A stretch of DNA of 64,000 bases from a virus, in IMG/VR virus record IMGVR_UViG_3300041411_000129, positions 62,001-126,000 of that record; one strand, written 5' to 3'. A program made the position numbers and the translations under genes. This document shows positions 14,556 to 63,833 of this stretch, in pieces. Below the pieces are notes generated by a model. It was not told the origin of the DNA and did not search any database. It saw only the letters and a list, made by a program, of their open reading frames with translations. The stretch's first letter is position 1, and the number at the start of each line of letters is the position of its first letter.

Positions 14556-14620
14556 AAATCCGTCTCTCTATAAGGGAGGCAATCGTTCATACAACTTTGT
14601 TTCTAAATGAGGTGAGCGTC

Positions 14621-16291
14621 TTGAAACCTGACATGCTACCCGCGTTGCTCTGGATTCTGCATGCCTCGGATGCAGACCTTAAGCACATCGCTCCAATTAC
14701 ACGACTTGACATCACCGAGGGCGCTACTAGCGACTTCCACGATGACGGTCTTTATTCCACTCGAATCTTCGGGATGGTTGGTTCTACCGAACGTGATGAG
14801 ATTTACGGCAAGATTGATCTTAAAGTAAACATCATCCACCCCAAGGTCTATCGTGACTTGGTAGGTCAGCGTGATCTGTACAAGACTATTCTTGACGGCA
14901 CCCGCATGGCTAAGTTCGACGAGGCTGAAGGTGACTTCGTTGCGAGCATTGACGAGGATGCTGAAACTGGCTTCTCGTTCTTCATGCGATACCTCGACAA
15001 AATCCAGCTGAAGACTAACAAATCTCCAGCGCGTAACGAGCGGATCAAGTTCCTTGAGAAGTGGCGTCACCGTTGGTTGATGAAGAACCTCATCGTTATG
15101 CCTGCTGGTTTGCGGGACGTGGAGATGGGTGAAGATGGTCGCGTGACTAAACACGAGATCAACGAGTATTACTTCAAAGCGATTTCCATCACCAACACGA
15201 TTACCCGCTCAAGCGACATGGAGTCGTCGGCGTACGATCAGGCACGTCTTTCCCTGACCTTGATCATCAACGAGCTGTACAAGTACCTGGAGCGCTTCCA
15301 GGGCGGTAAAGATGGCTTCCTTAAAGATAAGTGGGCATCCCGCCGGGTGCGTGAAGGTACTCGTAACGTATTGACCTCCATGAACACCACCGGTGTCAGT
15401 TTGGACTCCCCTAACGTACCGAGCTTTGACAGTACGGTGCTGGGTGTTTACCAGACAGCAGTGGGTCTTGCGCCGTTGGTCATACACTGGCTCCGCACAG
15501 GATTCCTGTCGAAGGTCATGGCGGCTGGTGAAGGTGACGTTTCTCTGATTGATCCGAAGACTCTCAAACGTACGTGGGTTTCCCTCTCGGCGTATGAGCG
15601 TGACCGCTGGATCACTGAAGATGGTCAACGCGATGTCATCAACCACTTGATCGATAACGAAGCTCGTGGTCGTCCTATCATGATCAACGGCTGCTATCTG
15701 TCGTTGGTTTATCTGGGCGAAGATACCTTCAAGGTGTTCGACTCCATCGATGAGCTGCCGGCGGGCTTTGATAAAGCCAATGTCCACCCAATGACGTTGA
15801 TCGAACTGATTTACCTCTGCGGCTATTCCAAGTGGAGCAAGTACTTCACGGACATCGTTCGTTATCCGGTTACCGGTGATGACTCGACTTATCCGTCTCG
15901 CATCTACGTTAAGTCCACATCCGTTGGCGAAGTTCGCTGGGAGCTGGATGAACATTGGGAGAAGCAGACTGGCGATGAGTTCATGGCCGTTGAGTATCCA
16001 AAGTTCGGCTTGACCACGTATCACGATTCTGAATCACCACACCCTAGCCGTCTTAGCGGCCTTGGCGCTGACTTTGACGGTGACACCGGTTCGTCCACCA
16101 AAGTCATGATGAAAGAATCGCTCGAAGAAACTGAGCGGTATCTCGGAACGCGAGCTGCATGGGTGAAGCCTTCTGGCGCTCCTCGTGCGTCTGTTGTTTA
16201 CGATACCTCCGAATTGGTCATACGTAACCTGACCAGTCGATTCAATCATGTCGTTCAGAACGCTGACACTATTCGTAAGTCGGTTGACTGA
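14621..16291 (+). CDS. virion RNA polymerase beta-prime subunit, N-terminal part (phiKZ gp180-like)
   Basis: Encodes 556 residues from a TTG start. A perfect GAGGTGA (14609-14615) lies 5 bases before TTG 14621, whereas the first in-frame ATG at 14633 is too far. Recognisable beta-prime blocks in order are DDGLYSTRIFG, KIDLKVNIIHP (compare GHIELASPVAHIW), LIVMPAGLRDV (compare VLPVPPPDLRP), and the catalytic GADFDGD at 482-488, whose three Asp bind the active-site magnesium. No zinc-binding Cys cluster is present at the N-terminus. The polypeptide ends 68 residues after the catalytic loop, so the rest of beta-prime must be encoded elsewhere (phiKZ gp80-like, not seen here). In phiKZ this enzyme is packaged and transcribes early genes. 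Confidence 0.88.
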   Translation: MKPDMLPALLWILHASDADLKHIAPITRLDITEGATSDFHDDGLYSTRIFGMVGSTERDEIYGKIDLKVNIIHPKVYRDLVGQRDLYKTILDGTRMAKFDEAEGDFVASIDEDAETGFSFFMRYLDKIQLKTNKSPARNERIKFLEKWRHRWLMKNLIVMPAGLRDVEMGEDGRVTKHEINEYYFKAISITNTITRSSDMESSAYDQARLSLTLIINELYKYLERFQGGKDGFLKDKWASRRVREGTRNVLTSMNTTGVSLDSPNVPSFDSTVLGVYQTAVGLAPLVIHWLRTGFLSKVMAAGEGDVSLIDPKTLKRTWVSLSAYERDRWITEDGQRDVINHLIDNEARGRPIMINGCYLSLVYLGEDTFKVFDSIDELPAGFDKANVHPMTLIELIYLCGYSKWSKYFTDIVRYPVTGDDSTYPSRIYVKSTSVGEVRWELDEHWEKQTGDEFMAVEYPKFGLTTYHDSESPHPSRLSGLGADFDGDTGSSTKVMMKESLEETERYLGTRAAWVKPSGAPRASVVYDTSELVIRNLTSRFNHVVQNADTIRKSVD

Positions 16292-44268: not shown

Positions 44269-44634
44269 ATGGGTGAATTGATTATTTGGTGGATTACTGG
44301 CGAGCAAGTAAAAGAGATCTTTGCTCGTTACGCTAAACATGAGAAAGGTGAGTTTGACCGAGTAACTTTACCCGATGGTCTTCCGAATTACCTGAAGGAG
44401 GAGCTCGGTTCTCGTAATGGCCGGCCTGGACGTTGCCGTCTGTGGATCAATCATAAGTTTGAATTCCAGGGCTGTAACTGGGATCAGGCTAAAGCTGACG
44501 AGTTGTTCGAGGGTATTGATCAGGCAGACATTGGCGGTATCGTCATGTGGCGTCACGATATCCAGCGTCTGTTGGATTTCGATTTCCCTAATCTCTTCAC
44601 AGACAAAGATCTGAATAAGATCGAAGAAATCTAA
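44269..44634 (+). CDS. hypothetical protein
   Basis: Encodes 121 residues with AAGGAA 9 bases before the ATG. The sequence has a hydrophobic N-terminus (MGELIIWWITGEQV) that is too short and interrupted to be a secure membrane span. The C-terminal half is acidic. Member of the 41.6-47.3 kb operon. Not recognised. Confidence 0.6.
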   Translation: MGELIIWWITGEQVKEIFARYAKHEKGEFDRVTLPDGLPNYLKEELGSRNGRPGRCRLWINHKFEFQGCNWDQAKADELFEGIDQADIGGIVMWRHDIQRLLDFDFPNLFTDKDLNKIEEI

Positions 44635-44676: not shown

Positions 44677-46155
44677 ATGACTATCCGCGAAGAAGTTATC
44701 GCTTTGAAACCAACAACAACCGAACGTGAAGTTCCTACCCGTATCTTCGGCGAAGCTGAAGTGCGTCAGACGTACATCGACAAGGCTAAGTACGAGAGTG
44801 CTGGTCGAGGTTCTTTCAATCCGTTATTGTCGCTGATTGGACCTAATGCTGACTTCGATGGTAATGCCTTGAATATAAAACCGGGGCAACTAGAGCAAGT
44901 GCTCTTTACACGAGGTTACGCTACAGATATAAATTCCGACATCTCTCTCACTCCAGATGCGTTCGCTGATTATCAGCGGTTTATGGCTGAGTCACAAACA
45001 GCGATGGTTCTCGAGACAGGTGACGCGACTAAAGCCCTGATCATGGAGAACAAACCGCTGGACGAGAGCGAATACTTCAACCGTAAAATGTTGGCTAAGG
45101 CTGAAGCGGTTGAGCAACGTATCTTGAAGTTGATGGAAGAAGGGATGACTCGTGTTGAGGCTACTCAAGTAGTTGCTTATAACGCAGATCAGCTCAACAA
45201 AATGCGCCAGAAAGAATGGCGCGCACACGTCAACGGTTATGAACTCTTTGGTCCTGATGATCCTAATCGCCGGCCTATTAAGGACCCGACATCTTACGAT
45301 GACGATCTGATCGCTCGTCAATACCGTGATCCACTCTTTAAGGTCCGAGCTATTGAGGATCACATCGAGAGCATCATGATGTTCAAAGATCCTGGTTGGG
45401 AAGCTCGGATTATCCGTCTGCGTAAAGAACAAGCGATGTTGATGGCGCCGGTTGCAGAACCTGTAGTCGCTGAACCGGAAGAGCCACCACCTCCACCGCC
45501 TATTCTGGACTTCACCACCGGTGATCTGGAAATGCCTGAGCGATTCATCATCAAGGATCTCAAAGGCTTCGAGTTCAATCCAGATACCAAGTTCGATGGT
45601 CTGCGCCTGCCTTACGATTCCTGCCTGTTTGTATTGGGTGATGAACTGAAGGCTGTTGTTCTGGCTACTCAAGAAGATGAGGACGTAATCACTCTGAAGC
45701 TTCTATCTGAGACCAAGAAGGATATCCCTTGGCACGCCACTGCAACGCTGTACGCGCGTCTTCAAGGCGATAAGGTTAAGGTTCGTTGGGGTAACACTAA
45801 ACGCAGCCTGGATAAGCGTTTGGGTATGGTGTCTTCTGTTCTTGCCTTCATCGCTGGTGAGCAGCTTAGTGAAGTTGAGATTGAAACCGTTATCACCGCC
45901 CCTGAGCAAGATGTTCCTCCACCTAAGCCTGGCAACTGCTACAATGTGGTTAGTCTGGTGCAAGGTCGTCGCGGTAAACGCACTGACTGGAAAGGTGGCA
46001 CTCACGCCTCTCCTCGCGAACACAAACGTAAAGGTCACTGGTGGCCTGGCAAACACGGTCCTATCTGGATCAAGGCTACTATCGTGAACAAAGGCGTTCT
46101 CGGTAAAGTCGATAAAGAATATCACGTCACTAAACTTGAAGGAACAAACGCATGA
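44677..46155 (+). CDS. unknown protein with RNA-polymerase-like NADFDGN motif and basic GHWW C-terminal motif
   Basis: Encodes 492 residues. Residues 51-63 read LSLIGPNADFDGN, closely matching TLVAPNADFDGDYM around the catalytic loop of the non-virion polymerase encoded at 62343, but with Asn in place of the last catalytic Asp. The rest does not look like beta-prime: there is a charged helical middle, a Pro/Glu hinge (EEPPPPPP region at about 265-275), then a C-terminal domain ending in HKRKGHWWPGKHGPIWIKAT, a motif type common at the C-terminus of assorted phage proteins. The next gene overlaps its stop by ATGA. A polymerase relative, decoy or coincidence are all possible. Confidence 0.6.
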   Translation: MTIREEVIALKPTTTEREVPTRIFGEAEVRQTYIDKAKYESAGRGSFNPLLSLIGPNADFDGNALNIKPGQLEQVLFTRGYATDINSDISLTPDAFADYQRFMAESQTAMVLETGDATKALIMENKPLDESEYFNRKMLAKAEAVEQRILKLMEEGMTRVEATQVVAYNADQLNKMRQKEWRAHVNGYELFGPDDPNRRPIKDPTSYDDDLIARQYRDPLFKVRAIEDHIESIMMFKDPGWEARIIRLRKEQAMLMAPVAEPVVAEPEEPPPPPPILDFTTGDLEMPERFIIKDLKGFEFNPDTKFDGLRLPYDSCLFVLGDELKAVVLATQEDEDVITLKLLSETKKDIPWHATATLYARLQGDKVKVRWGNTKRSLDKRLGMVSSVLAFIAGEQLSEVEIETVITAPEQDVPPPKPGNCYNVVSLVQGRRGKRTDWKGGTHASPREHKRKGHWWPGKHGPIWIKATIVNKGVLGKVDKEYHVTKLEGTNA

Positions 46156-46781
46156 AACTGATTACCCGCCGTGCATTCAAACTGTTGGAAGGTGAAGTAC
46201 TGTTCTCGAAATACTCTCCGATGGTCTTCGAAGGATTTGAGATCAAACTCGAAAACTGCGGCAACAACGATTGGGTTACCGATCCGATCCGACCTGACAA
46301 CATCATGAACGAAGGCTCGGAGGACATGTACCTGAAGTTGGATGTAGCGGAGCAGCTGAAGGATGATCCTAATGCCCCACATCTGGAGATGGATTTCGAC
46401 TACTCTGGCCGTGACGGTCTTTACGAAGATGACGATTCTCTGATCGCTATCTACGACGAGGCCGATATCCTCAAGTTGGCGGAGCGTCTTGTACGTCTGC
46501 TGCCAAACCACGAGCTGGTGCTTAAAGCCCCCGAGGTTGAGCCAAAGACGGTGGATCTCGACGATGGGCTAACGAAAGAAACTGCTCCAGATCCTGAACG
46601 CTGTAACGATGACGTTTACAAACACGGCGTTAGCCTTGGTTTCCACGACATGACCAAAGACGAGGCGGAAGCCTGGTGTATCGAACAAACCAAGGTAACC
46701 GGTCGTAAGCACGACTGGCACTACGTTGGTGGTCGTGTTCACATCAAGGCTATGCCAGAAGTTAAGGGAGGGGAACAGTAA
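46152..46781 (+). CDS. hypothetical acidic protein
   Basis: Encodes 209 residues, overlapping the previous gene by 4 bases (ATGA), with AAGGA 8 bases upstream. Strongly acidic in the first two thirds. The C-terminal segment (MTKDEAEAWCIEQTKVTGRK) is followed by HDWHYVGGRVHIK. Translationally coupled both upstream and downstream. Function unknown. Confidence 0.65.
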   Translation: MKLITRRAFKLLEGEVLFSKYSPMVFEGFEIKLENCGNNDWVTDPIRPDNIMNEGSEDMYLKLDVAEQLKDDPNAPHLEMDFDYSGRDGLYEDDDSLIAIYDEADILKLAERLVRLLPNHELVLKAPEVEPKTVDLDDGLTKETAPDPERCNDDVYKHGVSLGFHDMTKDEAEAWCIEQTKVTGRKHDWHYVGGRVHIKAMPEVKGGEQ

Positions 46782-47296
46782 TGGGTGCGGATTGGCATGG
46801 TGCTTCCGTAAAACTGAAACCTCGGACGATGCTTAGCGATACTCCGAATACTTTCCTTACGGGGATGTTCGGGCGGGATGTATCTATCACTGACATCGAA
46901 ATCGCCATGGTTCCTAAAGAGGTGGATCTAGGCCGAAACTATCGGCTGTTCTCTTGGTTAGCTGGCGTCTGCGGCGAAACACCACCTCTCCATGAGAATC
47001 TCGAAGAACGGGGTGAAAAGGTTCTGGAGTTACTCGACTGGTTGGGGATCGATAACGACTACAATAAGACTGGTGATTTCTGGATCGGCGATTCCAACTG
47101 GAACTACGTCAGCGTAAAGGAGTTGGTTGAGTTCAATTACGATGCTGAGTCTGTGCCGGGTGGTGATACTTACCGTGAGTTATTCATGGTGCGTGGTGTT
47201 CCTGAAGAGCAGCGTGACGAGTTCTTCAAGTTCATCCAGTGGTGTTCTGAAACCGGGCAGGATTGGATTGTGTTCGGCTTCTACGACGCGTTCTAA
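46781..47296 (+). CDS. hypothetical protein
   Basis: Encodes 171 residues; the ATG shares a base with the upstream stop and follows GGAGGGG. It starts MGADWHGASVKLK and is acidic with many Trp and Tyr residues towards the C-terminus (SETGQDWIVFGFYDAF). The last gene of the operon; a strong hairpin and T-run follow. Not recognised. Confidence 0.65.
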   Translation: MGADWHGASVKLKPRTMLSDTPNTFLTGMFGRDVSITDIEIAMVPKEVDLGRNYRLFSWLAGVCGETPPLHENLEERGEKVLELLDWLGIDNDYNKTGDFWIGDSNWNYVSVKELVEFNYDAESVPGGDTYRELFMVRGVPEEQRDEFFKFIQWCSETGQDWIVFGFYDAF

Positions 47297-59767: not shown

Positions 59768-60243
59768 TTTAATGTCCCGGATAGATGGTTGCGTAAAAAG
59801 TTACACATGTTCACTATTATATAGTAGATCCCTCGAAGACATTCGTAACCCGAATGTCTCGACAGCGTCTGCTACCCCAGTACGCTGTTTAGAGTCATTT
59901 CATTTGGACCGCGACCAACAAATTTCTGGTGATACATTATCATCGTGCATATAGAAACACGCTGATGGAAATGAATCTAAAAACATTACAGGTATACATT
60001 ACCGTAGTGAATATAACCAGTGGATAAGGAAAGTCGAAGTGATCTAAGTAAAAAGTCACACAGCAACAGAATCTTAAGACCCGTAGCGTAAAGCCGGTTT
60101 AGTGCAACCGGTTCAAGCCCGTGCTATTCACGACGGTGGGTATTGCCGGGAATCCCTGATAGCGATAAGGGTAATAGTACCGTAATTGCCAGTTAGGCAC
60201 CATCGCAATAAATGTGTACACAAAATCTTTAGGAGTAGCACCA
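59768..60243. promoter_or_regulatory. long leader and promoter region of the candidate chmA
   Basis: A 476-bp gap without a credible gene. TATACATTACCG at 59993-60004 is the best promoter-like element in the window, giving a leader of about 240 bases. The leader contains an AGCCGGTT/AACCGGTT hairpin (60092-60113), a TGCC/GGCA hairpin near 60187-60200, and complementary GTGAATA (60007-60013) and TATTCAC (60125-60131) that could close a 125-base domain. An ACACATGTTCACTATTATATAG stretch near 59801 may serve the minus-strand gene or an upstream start. A short frame at 59772-59954 has no ribosome-binding site. Confidence 0.5.
59993..60004 (+). promoter_or_regulatory. candidate early promoter of chmA (TATACATTACCG)
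   Basis: The recurring core in its fullest form, located about 240 bases before the GTG start of the candidate ChmA gene. It differs by two bases from the phiKZ early element TATATTAC as recalled. chmA is an early gene in phiKZ. Confidence 0.5.
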
Positions 60244-62262
60244 GTGAGCAAAGAAAACGGTAACGACGGCTTCGAAATGAAAGATGACGCCCCAGCCCCA
60301 CGCGCCGAAGCTCCAGCATCTGAGCGCCGTGAAGAACGTCGCGAAGAGCCACGTCGTGAAGAACGCAATACCCGCCGCGATCGCGATGAGCGTGAAGAAG
60401 GCGAAGAACGTGCGTTCACGATTGCGGACATCGGCCGTACCCTGAACGTCCGTCCATCCAGCGGTGGCCTGAGCGATGCTGCTCTGTCCGCACTCATGGC
60501 TGCGTTCGAGAAGAACAAGGCGTTCGACAAACCGAACCTGCCTGATGCAATCAAGCGCGACCGCTTCAAAGTGATTCCGCTGGACGGCTCCCTGGCCAAG
60601 TCCTCGCTGAACTCGCTGCTGGTAACTCTGCCAATCGTCATCGGCGCTGGCAAGGCAACTCTGGTTTACGTTCTGACCATCGAACCGGCCGGTGGCCACG
60701 GTACTCGCAGTCAGGTCGATCGCGGCACCACTTACGATGCGATCGTTCTGCCTGAAGACCAACTGGCTACCAAGCCGTACAAACGCGCCATCGAAGATCA
60801 GGTCTCCGGCCTGAACAAAGATGCCAAGGTTGTGGTGATCGGTTCGCAGGTTCTGCTGTCGTCGGTTGTAGCGAAGCTGAACAAAGAAGAAAACAGCGCC
60901 GTCGTCGATCGTATCTTCGACAACGCCCTGGATGCACTGTGCGGCTACCGCGAAAACCTGGTCGACAAGGCCGGTGGTTCCCGCAACAGCGCCTTCCGCA
61001 TCAGCCCGAAAATGATCGGCCGCACTGGCCGTCTGGAAACCACCTGGAACTACAGCGGTCAACCGGGCGAAGATAGCTCGGGTCAGCCGATCCGTTCCGA
61101 CTGCACCGGTAACCTGTTCTACAGCGAAGCCAGCAACGAAGACGATAACCAGTACGACCGTACCCCAATGGGCGAAATCCGTGCAGGTATCGACCTCTTC
61201 CTGGCCGACAACCGTGAACAGTCCAGCGGTCCATCCTTCTCGCGTCGCCGCAAGTCGCAAGAAGAAGGCGAACCGTTCATCCAGGCCGTTCTGAACATCA
61301 CCTCGATCGCTCCAGCGCCGAACTTCCCGTTCTCTCTGGAACTGGCACTGCTGCTGTTGGCTCAGGCCAACCTGCAATCGAACGACTACCGCTGGGCTTC
61401 CCAGCTGCGTCCTCGCACTGCAATCAGCAACCCAGACGGCACCGGCGTGATGAAGCCTACCAGCAACATCAACTGCCTGCACCTGCTGAACCCGAACCGC
61501 GACTTTGCCAAGATCTTCGACGACGTGTCTCCGAACATGGACGACAACGATCTGAGCGATTACCTCGCGTTCACGGTCTTCCCGAAACTGGCCATCGGCA
61601 TGATGATCCCAAGCTCGGGCGAGAAGTCCTCGGTTCTGTCGATCTTCGAAAGCATCGCGACCACTCGCGATACCGACGTTGCTCGTCGCCACACCAAGAC
61701 GCTGTTCGAAGCTGCCGACGTTCTGTCGGGCAACCGCTTCAGCCGCGCCTACAAGGACCTGGCTGGTTCCACCGACGTAGCTCCAGTGCGTTCGATGGGT
61801 ACTCGTCAGCTGATCGGCACCTGGGTTGATAACCAAGGCAACGTGCGCGACCTGCGCGAATGGAACGTTCAGTCTCTCCTCACCGAAGTTGGCGAGAAGA
61901 ACATCGATCTGGTTACTGACTTCCAGTACACCTACGAGAACGATCGCAACACCGTGGACTTCTGCCTGGCAGAACGTCTGGGCTACCTCCAGAAGGTTGT
62001 TCCGGGCATCCGCGTTACCACCACCGCTCCGCTGCTGGGCTTCGAGCCCGACTTCCTCGAGGCGCTGTCGCGCTCCCTGGACGCAGCTGACATGTCGAGC
62101 TACATGACTGCCGAAGGTGGTCTGAACACTCGTCGTCACGTTGGTGGTAGCAACTGGTCGCAGCTGGCAACTTCCGACATCGGCATCAGCCGTCGTCGTG
62201 GTTCCGACCGCACCACCGCTGATCGTGGCCGTGGTGGTCTGTTCGACACCATCGACTACTAA
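60244..62262 (+). CDS. chmA: candidate ChmA (chimallin), nuclear shell protein
   Basis: Encodes 672 residues from GTG 60244, chosen because AGGAG (60231-60235) lies 8 bases before it; an in-frame GTG at 60214 precedes that site. The protein has a strikingly Arg/Glu-rich N-terminal region (residues about 26-60), a globular body with strand and helix blocks, and an Arg/Gly-rich C-terminal tail (SRRRGSDRTTADRGRGG). In phiKZ the shell protein gene gp54 lies directly before the non-virion polymerase gene gp55, exactly the order here. Length is similar to known shell proteins (about 600-650). Codon use is the most biased in the window, as expected for a very abundant early protein. I did not match individual residues to known ChmA, so identification rests on synteny, size and expression features. 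Confidence 0.7.
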   Translation: MSKENGNDGFEMKDDAPAPRAEAPASERREERREEPRREERNTRRDRDEREEGEERAFTIADIGRTLNVRPSSGGLSDAALSALMAAFEKNKAFDKPNLPDAIKRDRFKVIPLDGSLAKSSLNSLLVTLPIVIGAGKATLVYVLTIEPAGGHGTRSQVDRGTTYDAIVLPEDQLATKPYKRAIEDQVSGLNKDAKVVVIGSQVLLSSVVAKLNKEENSAVVDRIFDNALDALCGYRENLVDKAGGSRNSAFRISPKMIGRTGRLETTWNYSGQPGEDSSGQPIRSDCTGNLFYSEASNEDDNQYDRTPMGEIRAGIDLFLADNREQSSGPSFSRRRKSQEEGEPFIQAVLNITSIAPAPNFPFSLELALLLLAQANLQSNDYRWASQLRPRTAISNPDGTGVMKPTSNINCLHLLNPNRDFAKIFDDVSPNMDDNDLSDYLAFTVFPKLAIGMMIPSSGEKSSVLSIFESIATTRDTDVARRHTKTLFEAADVLSGNRFSRAYKDLAGSTDVAPVRSMGTRQLIGTWVDNQGNVRDLREWNVQSLLTEVGEKNIDLVTDFQYTYENDRNTVDFCLAERLGYLQKVVPGIRVTTTAPLLGFEPDFLEALSRSLDAADMSSYMTAEGGLNTRRHVGGSNWSQLATSDIGISRRRGSDRTTADRGRGGLFDTIDY

Positions 62263-62342: not shown

Positions 62343-63833
62343 ATGGATTTGATTAATTACGATATCTACGAGCCACGTCAGCGTTATCCGGGGCGTAAGG
62401 GTATCTATCCAGTCATTGAAGACTTCGACCTGATGTTCAAGAACTTGAGCATTAAGCCGATGTTGGCAAACGACCTGGATCTCGAAACAGATGAAGGTAA
62501 ACAGCGGTTCAACGATCTGGTCTACACCAAGTACGATGGTGACGTGTTCTCCAACGTGCCGGCGTGTCCATGCCGTAAGACTTCTGGTGGTAGCCGTATT
62601 CATGACAACTGTATTCACTGCGGTTATGAAGTACTGCCAATTACAGAGCAAACTATCGAACCTATCGTCTGGGTAAGGGCACCTGACGAAGTTCCTGGGT
62701 TCATCAACTTGACAATCTACCGGTTGCTCAAGGCCCGATTCACCAAGTCCTCATTCAGCGTCTTCGACTACATCCTTGATCCAAAGTACCGCCCTCCTAA
62801 GCTTAACAGCAAAGAAGAGCGTCTTATTGAAGCGATCGTACCTACTCGTGGGTTGGTCTACTTCCATAAGCACTTCGATGAGATCATGTCCAAGTTGTGC
62901 GCAATCAGGCACTTCGTAACAGCGGCCAAAGCTGCTAGCACGATGCGTTTCATTGATATCCACAAACACCTGATCTTCTGCCGCTACATGCCGTTCCCAT
63001 CCAAGATTGGTTTCATCGTCGAAGATGTGGGCGACCGTACGTACGTCGATCCAAAGATGGCACCCGCACTGGATGCGCTCATCTGTCTTGGCAAAGTAGC
63101 ATCGGCCAAGCGCATTTCTCTGTACGATCTTGAATCCCGGATCGCACGGTCAAGCAATAAGCTCTGCACCTATTACTCGGGTAACGAGCATCTCAAGATC
63201 TTTGACAAGAAAGGAGTATTGCGAAAACTGGTTTACGGTGTATCGCCGCACTTTACGTTCCGTACGGTAATCACCTCGAACCACAAACCTCACGATCACG
63301 AGTCTCTCGAGATTCCATGGGGTTCAGCAGTTCTGACGTTTAAGCTCCACATCGCGAACAAGCTACGGAAGGAGAAGTATACTCCTAACGAAATCTTGAC
63401 GCTGGTCTACGATAACGTTCTTCGGACGCACCACCGCATTGAGAAGATCTTCGACGAGCTGATCGCCGAATCTCCAGGCGGTCGAGGGATGATGGCAGGC
63501 TTTACGCGGTTCCCATCGCTTAAGCGTGGTTCTACGCAAGGCTTCTACATCGATACGATCAAACGCGATCCTACCCAATTGAGTACATCCATCTCTGTAT
63601 TGACGCTGGTAGCACCCAACGCCGACTTCGATGGTGACTACATGTCTGGACAATTGGCACTGGATAACGTGACAGCAAGGGCTTTCGAGCGCCTGAAACC
63701 AAGTACTGGGTTCATGGACCTCAAGAAGGTCTTCGGAGTGAGTAACCACGCAAACATACCTGCGCCGGTTATCTCTACAATCAACGCACGTATTGAGGAA
63801 GGAAACGACCTATCAGTACCCATGGGAGATTGA
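62343..63833 (+). CDS. non-virion RNA polymerase beta-prime subunit, N-terminal part (phiKZ gp55-like)
   Basis: Encodes 496 residues. A zinc-binding cluster is visible (C75, C77, C90, C93: ACPCRK and NCIHCGYE). The catalytic loop PNADFDGDYM has Asp residues within 426-432. The protein ends soon after that loop, so the rest of beta-prime is a separate gene, as in phiKZ (gp55 with gp74). The enzyme is made after infection, works inside the nucleus-like shell and transcribes late genes. The gene follows candidate chmA after a strong terminator, with a weak GAGAAG ribosome site. It differs from the virion beta-prime at 14621 in keeping the zinc ribbon. Confidence 0.85.
   Translation: MDLINYDIYEPRQRYPGRKGIYPVIEDFDLMFKNLSIKPMLANDLDLETDEGKQRFNDLVYTKYDGDVFSNVPACPCRKTSGGSRIHDNCIHCGYEVLPITEQTIEPIVWVRAPDEVPGFINLTIYRLLKARFTKSSFSVFDYILDPKYRPPKLNSKEERLIEAIVPTRGLVYFHKHFDEIMSKLCAIRHFVTAAKAASTMRFIDIHKHLIFCRYMPFPSKIGFIVEDVGDRTYVDPKMAPALDALICLGKVASAKRISLYDLESRIARSSNKLCTYYSGNEHLKIFDKKGVLRKLVYGVSPHFTFRTVITSNHKPHDHESLEIPWGSAVLTFKLHIANKLRKEKYTPNEILTLVYDNVLRTHHRIEKIFDELIAESPGGRGMMAGFTRFPSLKRGSTQGFYIDTIKRDPTQLSTSISVLTLVAPNADFDGDYMSGQLALDNVTARAFERLKPSTGFMDLKKVFGVSNHANIPAPVISTINARIEEGNDLSVPMGD

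Follow-up and report, generated by a model that had tools for sequence, protein, structure and literature searches.

Integrated decoys of immune receptors carry an imitation of a protected target that is fused to another domain. In phages that build a nucleus the non-virion RNA polymerase (nvRNAP) is made early and resides inside this nucleus, from which the virion RNA polymerase (vRNAP) is excluded (PMC10612078). The anti-CRISPR protein AcrVA2 has been reported to recognize nascent Cas12a and thereby to cause decay of the Cas12a mRNA (PMC13131331). The protein ORF43 of a Shewanella phage (OQ927986) matches the AcrVA2 structure 7CI1 (E 1.5e-72) and was published as AcrVA2-like (PMC10846135). 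We have very little doubt that the product of the phage gene described here consists of an array of nvRNAP motifs on a C-terminal domain (CTD) from a family related to AcrVA2.

Results

The NADFDGN block is related to the catalytic loop of nvRNAP

The window, that is, the whole stretch of DNA that was analyzed, comprises 64,000 nucleotides of a virus record of 253.9 kb. The four large nvRNAP subunits (P0002, P0011, P0012 and P0013) are all encoded in the record, as are subunits of the virion RNAP; an intact gp74 (E 2.7e-152) is present alongside the 492-aa protein under study. The phage is nucleus-forming, because it encodes a homolog of the nuclear shell protein chimallin. The relevant genes of the window are:

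14597..16291, + strand: virion RNAP subunit, ortholog of Noxifer gp196, with a GADFDGD loop at about 16064; not a source of the array
44677..46155, + strand: whole gene of the 492-aa protein, with the array at residues 1 to about 265, a proline hinge and the CTD of an AcrVA2-like family
60214..62262, + strand: homolog of the nuclear shell protein (chimallin); phrog_4795 E 1.4e-34, PhuN in the PDB E 0.009
62343..63833, + strand: nvRNAP β' N-subunit, ortholog of phiKZ gp55 (E 2.9e-68), with an intact NADFDGD at 63618-63638

Residues 51-63 of the 492-aa protein read LSLIGPNADFDGN, with NADFDGN encoded at 44845-44865; the corresponding stretch of the gp55 ortholog reads TLVAPNADFDGDYM. The original prediction, that NADFDGN is a near-copy of this nvRNAP loop in which the last Asp is replaced, proved to be right as far as the link to the catalytic loop is concerned. 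Two sites in the window fit a degenerate DNA pattern for NADFDG exactly, one in each of these two ORFs; with up to two mismatches four sites were observed where 0.63 are expected. Across 2.9 million viral contigs the string NADFDGNA occurs in 10 stretches. Since 8 of the 10 fall in homologs of the 492-aa protein, the block is not a product of chance, which is also ruled out by the pattern counts in the window. Among these contigs NADFDGNAL is almost exclusive to the family of array proteins, and 7 of the 8 homologs keep NADFDGN as a block.

The N-terminal half is made of pieces from four nvRNAP subunits

For the analysis of the N-terminal half we used HMMs of the four nvRNAP subunits, each from 4 to 7 phages, and scored the matches against 200 shuffled sequences. 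The pieces are labeled by letters: A from β-N; B from β-C with GESExR; C and D from β'-C; E, the β'-N loop; F from β-C with NRxNxGxLLE; G from β-C with YxxLEK. The gene is organized as follows:

44713..44769, + strand: piece B, TTTEREVPTRIFGEAEVRQ, residues 13-31; β C-subunit motif RExPxRxxGESExR, HMM positions 625-643, 0 of 200 shuffles as good
44791..44823, + strand: piece A, YESAGRGSFNP, residues 39-49; β N-subunit P-x-GR-x-x-INP, the weakest piece here
44845..44871, + strand: piece E, NADFDGNAL, residues 57-65; nvRNAP β' N-subunit catalytic loop in which Asn replaces Asp7
44875..44946, + strand: piece C, IKPGQLEQVLFTRGYATDINSDIS, residues 67-90; β' C-subunit upstream of the bridge helix, 57 bits, HMM positions 185-284, 0 of 200 shuffles
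45013..45117, + strand: piece D, ATKALIMENKPLDESEYFNRKM..., residues 113-147; β' C-subunit, bridge-helix region
45118..45471, + strand: helical variable stretch of unknown origin, common to the window protein, L008 and L009 only
45472..45501, + strand: proline-rich hinge EPEEPPPPPP, read from the sequence, which joins the array to the CTD
45541..46152, + strand: CTD, residues 289-492, from a large unannotated phage and plasmid family
45994..46041, + strand: GGTHASPREHKRKGHW, the R-x-H-x-(R/K)-(R/K)-G-H motif that AcrVA2 also has at its C-terminus

The expectation that the remainder of the protein would be unlike β' was wrong. Residues 67-146 match the β' C-subunit (phrog_3015 E 3.7e-10; phiKZ gp74, PDB 7ogp_D, E 7.5e-4); the likeness is local to these residues, which, going by the E. 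coli equivalents, comprise the bridge-helix region and the segment that precedes it. The motif of piece B and EY[FV]NRK of piece D were present in 8 of 8 homologs. Piece A is clear in L009 and in Pseudomonas phage Noxifer and was not detected by the HMM in the window protein. The phage's own β' C-subunit P0013 (G000:C1:139300-141276) reads EYANRK and the array keeps EYFNRK; every other nvRNAP β' C-subunit compared has EYFNRK or EWFNRK.

Homologs were found by scans: L008 (82% identity), L009 (591 aa), Noxifer gp262 (405 aa), L036, L037, L039 and L040. L006 and L007, two near-identical copies, are additional to this set, and a match in Delftia phage PhiW-14 turned out to be an unrelated protein. 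The C-terminal ~200 aa are common to all homologs, and the N-terminal half of each holds pieces of β-N, β-C, β'-N and β'-C, usually of all four. The picture of a loop in a non-polymerase therefore stands with respect to its nvRNAP origin and falls with respect to a single stray loop.

The same HMM windows recur in these N-terminal halves: 483-519 of β-N, 428-451 and 624-646 of β-C, 386-427 of β'-N and 165-294 of β'-C. For the β-C, β'-N and β'-C pieces mostly 0 of 200 shuffles were as good. The β-N piece scores best in L009 (21.5 bits, a strong match) and is also clear in Noxifer and L039; elsewhere it is weak or undetected, and in L036 and L037 it fell short of significance by HMM and is recognizable from its motif alone. 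Ranked by conservation, the segments represented in the arrays stand near the top within each subunit: NADFDGD and EYFNRK are first, RGYVTDINSDIF second and RENPMRSAGESE fourth. With the four subunit HMMs of the virion RNAP, the only signal in the arrays was a weak one at the DFDG loop that both polymerases have; the vRNAP, whose loop reads GADFDGD, was therefore rejected as source of the pieces.

A background screen covered 1,126 ORFs from this phage and Noxifer. At lenient thresholds gp262 alone matched all four subunits, and the window protein at full length passed for only two. A 123-aa ORF at G000:196301 passed for three; it has none of the motifs on inspection and was taken as chance.

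The order of the pieces is permuted between phages

The order of the pieces along the N-terminal half is:

Window protein and L008: B-A-E-C-D
L009: (G)BFAD, without the β'-N loop
Noxifer gp262: A-B-F-C-D-E
L036: G-B-D-C-A-E
L037: G-B-D-A-E
L039: ABBDE
L040: A-B-C-F-D-E

Pieces of four subunits together with the CTD were thus found in 8 homologs, with the exception of the loop in L009 and with the β-N piece recognized by motif only in L036 and L037. A folded domain cannot be permuted in this way and linear peptides can, which argues that the array is a series of linear peptides. Fixed peptides in a free order suggest, therefore, that these stretches have a reader to which they are linear motifs. 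A β' subunit would carry the third Asp of NADFDGD and have colinear full-length order; here all 7 members holding the loop read NADFDGN, and segments of four subunits are permuted between phages. Two of the origins proposed in the original prediction can be judged on this basis. With four separate genes as donors of the pieces, the array cannot be a displaced fragment. The free order, together with the different neighbors of the loop in different phages, makes structural reuse of the loop unlikely.

The peptides are conserved while the DNA of the array recombines

The codons for NADFDG are synonymous variants in almost every homolog and in the nvRNAP genes. Because the synonymous codons vary freely and the peptide is fixed, selection must act on the peptide. 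A role at the DNA level, for instance as copy of a homing-endonuclease target, was rejected for the same free variation of codons; near-identical DNA occurs in L009 only. Piece E must descend from one ancestor, even though it has moved within the array, since the D-to-N exchange and the following AL are common to all seven members.

In L009 the β-N piece agrees with the phage's own β-N gene at 35 of 37 nt, with a run of 12 identical aa, and is hence a recent copy, which indicates that pieces are recopied. At residues 66-104 of L009 a β-C piece runs into a β-N piece through an R-L-L stretch common to both (NRMNHGRLLEKHLTEMGGYKNQPKNNPDGR), which suggests joining at short homology. The β' C piece of the window protein has its closest counterpart in gp74 of the Erwinia type and is closer to this nvRNAP than to that of its own phage (score 146 vs 110).

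The window protein and L008 are otherwise very close, but the N-terminal half has a dS of 0.74 and a dN of 0.20, compared with a dS of 0.16 and a dN of 0.002 in the CTD. L036 and L037 differ by loss or gain of one whole piece. Because both dS and dN are raised, recombination is a better explanation than point selection; the C-terminal half is nearly frozen and the N-terminal half recombinogenic. The variable stretch begins upstream of the array gene, because the short gene just before it (44337-44486) also diverges from L008 (67% DNA identity, dS 0.67). On the other side, the adjoining gene 46152-46781 has indels relative to L008, and gene 46781-47296, two downstream, has about 40% DNA identity; the neighbors are mostly at 93-99%.

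The C-terminal domain belongs to a family related to AcrVA2

A search of Pfam and NCBIfam gave no useful match for the 492-aa protein or for its plain relatives, meaning proteins with the CTD family and no apparent array. In hhalign the CTD matched a profile of 25 plain relatives with a probability of 99.7% (E 3.7e-25), and with 91% when the C-terminal motif was left out. An AF2 model of the CTD reached pLDDT 78 and pTM 0.76; modeling without an alignment had given an unusable pLDDT of 40. Foldseek of the modeled CTD against the PDB found no relative, none below E 0.1, and the plain family, compared with PDB sequences, gave chance matches only.

In hhalign the profile of the AcrVA2 family (eight relatives) matched the CTD with 87% (E 4e-6), and its match to the plain family reached 95.8% (E 7e-9); six unrelated controls all stayed at or below 0.5%. 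Without the C-terminal motif the AcrVA2 and CTD profiles did not match (0.1%), and the N-terminal and central peptide-holding domain of AcrVA2 was not recognizable. Since removal of the motif abolished the match, the AcrVA2 relation is supported for the C-terminal motif only.

The plain family occupies at least 80 IMG/VR loci in temperate phages and conjugative plasmids (IncI, Burkholderia, Agrobacterium, Xanthomonas). Its members (L064-L143; L010:1697-2707, L011:1685-2737, L012:2213-2806) carry SPREHLRRGHIRR...WVN...VN, profile-related to the AcrVA2 C-terminus. Two proteins of Erwinia jumbo phages (L161 and L163, Alexandravirus) are AcrVA2-like, are annotated as hypothetical and had no RNAP pieces on inspection.

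Discussion

Our leading guess, a tentative one, is that the array acts as a decoy or bait. It would work as a set of short peptides and not as a fold, presenting those stretches that a factor recognizing nvRNAP would encounter in subunits still being synthesized or not yet assembled. A candidate for such a factor is a nascent-chain-recognizing, AcrVA2-like protein of a resident plasmid, a prophage or a competing phage. The peptides may divert this factor from the genuine subunits or deliver it to the CTD to which they are fused, and the D-to-N exchange would keep the epitope without the metal-binding triad. We count in favor of a decoy that the HMM windows recur, that their order differs, that the pieces lie on conserved windows, that selection is at the peptide level, that the N-terminal half has diverged far more than the CTD between close phages, that pieces are recopied, that gp262 alone matches all four subunits in the background screen, and that the CTD is related to a large family of mobile elements and has a C-terminal motif in common with AcrVA2. 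Against it count the pieces of the window protein that are not closest to the phage's own nvRNAP, where closeness to the own polymerase is expected, the weakness of several single pieces taken alone, and the background screen, in which the window protein passed for two subunits only and an unrelated ORF for three. The confinement of the AcrVA2 relation to one C-terminal motif also counts against a decoy, as does the absence of a PDB relative of the modeled CTD in Foldseek, and we know of no factor that recognizes nvRNAP peptides. That a renewable epitope array of the phage's own essential polymerase, recopied and reshuffled from four subunit genes, misleads or recruits readers of nascent or unassembled polymerase subunits is possible, if doubtful.

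After the decoy we would rank feedback control, then interference with the nvRNAP of other phages, then a role in import or assembly. The CTD could, like AcrVA2, read nascent nvRNAP peptides and lower the mRNA under translation; the array would then subject its own mRNA to this control as well or fill the CTD as an internal pseudo-ligand. The profile relation to AcrVA2, the conservation at the peptide level and the sampling of nvRNAP alone, never of vRNAP, are consistent with this regulator. We nevertheless consider it unlikely: the motifs sampled from β-N, β-C and β'-N are central in these subunits or close to their C-terminus, which is late for control of a nascent chain, and the peptide-holding domain of AcrVA2 is not recognizably conserved in the CTD. 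It is rather more unlikely that the peptides replace partner segments in the assembling nvRNAP of competing phages, the inactive loop contributing to a dominant-negative effect. The invariant D-to-N exchange in the catalytic triad and the closeness of the window pieces to Erwinia-type nvRNAP would fit such interference, but the L009 piece is identical to its own β-N, and isolated pieces of 10-30 aa in any order make poor structural competitors.

The array might instead copy peptides by which nvRNAP subunits are recognized when they enter the phage nucleus or are assembled. A gene for a nuclear shell protein is present in the phage, and the nuclear location of nvRNAP and exclusion of vRNAP (PMC10612078) fit the sampling of nvRNAP only; the sampled motifs, however, are active-centre segments that are buried once assembled. 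This makes a localization or chaperone factor quite improbable. Nor do we know of an import receptor that reads these motifs. A functionless N-terminal extension, formed as recombination debris of nvRNAP genes, would agree with the recombinogenic N-terminal half and with one piece being a recent DNA copy; such a relic is very improbable given that the motifs are kept in several lineages with synonymous drift, that the D-to-N exchange is invariant and that dN/dS in the N-terminal half is about 0.27 in the closest pair. One could finally regard NADFDGN as a diverged pre-bridge-helix segment (GNSIIEGL in gp74) within a continuous β' C-subunit fragment, its likeness to the loop being accidental; HMMER does align residues 45-146 to gp74 182-281 in one stretch. 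We give this hardly any credence and rejected it because NADFDGNAL lies elsewhere in the permuted homologs: it is unlinked, mostly after EYFNRK, in Noxifer, L036, L037, L039 and L040.

A reader of these motifs, if found, would expose either a way in which the transcription of jumbo phages is attacked or a control of polymerase synthesis that acts on nascent chains. If the epitope array is read as suggested, there would be an unseen layer of conflict over the nascent phage polymerase, fought with AcrVA2-related proteins. A large unannotated family of phages and conjugative plasmids is now tied to AcrVA2 through the C-terminal motif; to our knowledge peptide-guided mRNA decay, the mechanism reported for AcrVA2, has so far been a single case among anti-CRISPR proteins.

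A close known protein is gp262 of Noxifer (MF063068, ARV77427.1, annotated as hypothetical protein), which has the same four-subunit array and CTD and differs in being shorter and in the order A-B-F-C-D-E instead of B-A-E-C-D. The plain family (alignment A3) shares the whole CTD with the array proteins, including RLPYP and SPREHxRRGHxR...W(V/I)...VN; its members differ in having about 250-350 aa and a typical start M-x-x-x-N-Y-x-R, and the starts inspected had no RNAP pieces. AcrVA2 (PDB 7CI1, 7CI2) and the CTD are alike in the C-terminal R-x-H-x-R-R-G-H-W...W-x-P-x-x-V-N; the window protein has the RNAP array in place of the N-terminal helical domain, and the match is confined to this C-terminal motif. 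The source of the pieces is represented by phiKZ nvRNAP (gp123, gp71-73, gp55 and gp74; PDB 7ogp) with its conserved β and β' active-centre segments. In the array, pieces of 7-100 aa stand permuted in one protein with the catalytic Asp lost, and the phage retains intact subunits. We know of no protein that is built of short, order-free motif copies from all large subunits of one enzyme. The putative parallel to integrated decoys would be a conceptual one: the array presents many short linear motifs of four proteins, and not one domain.
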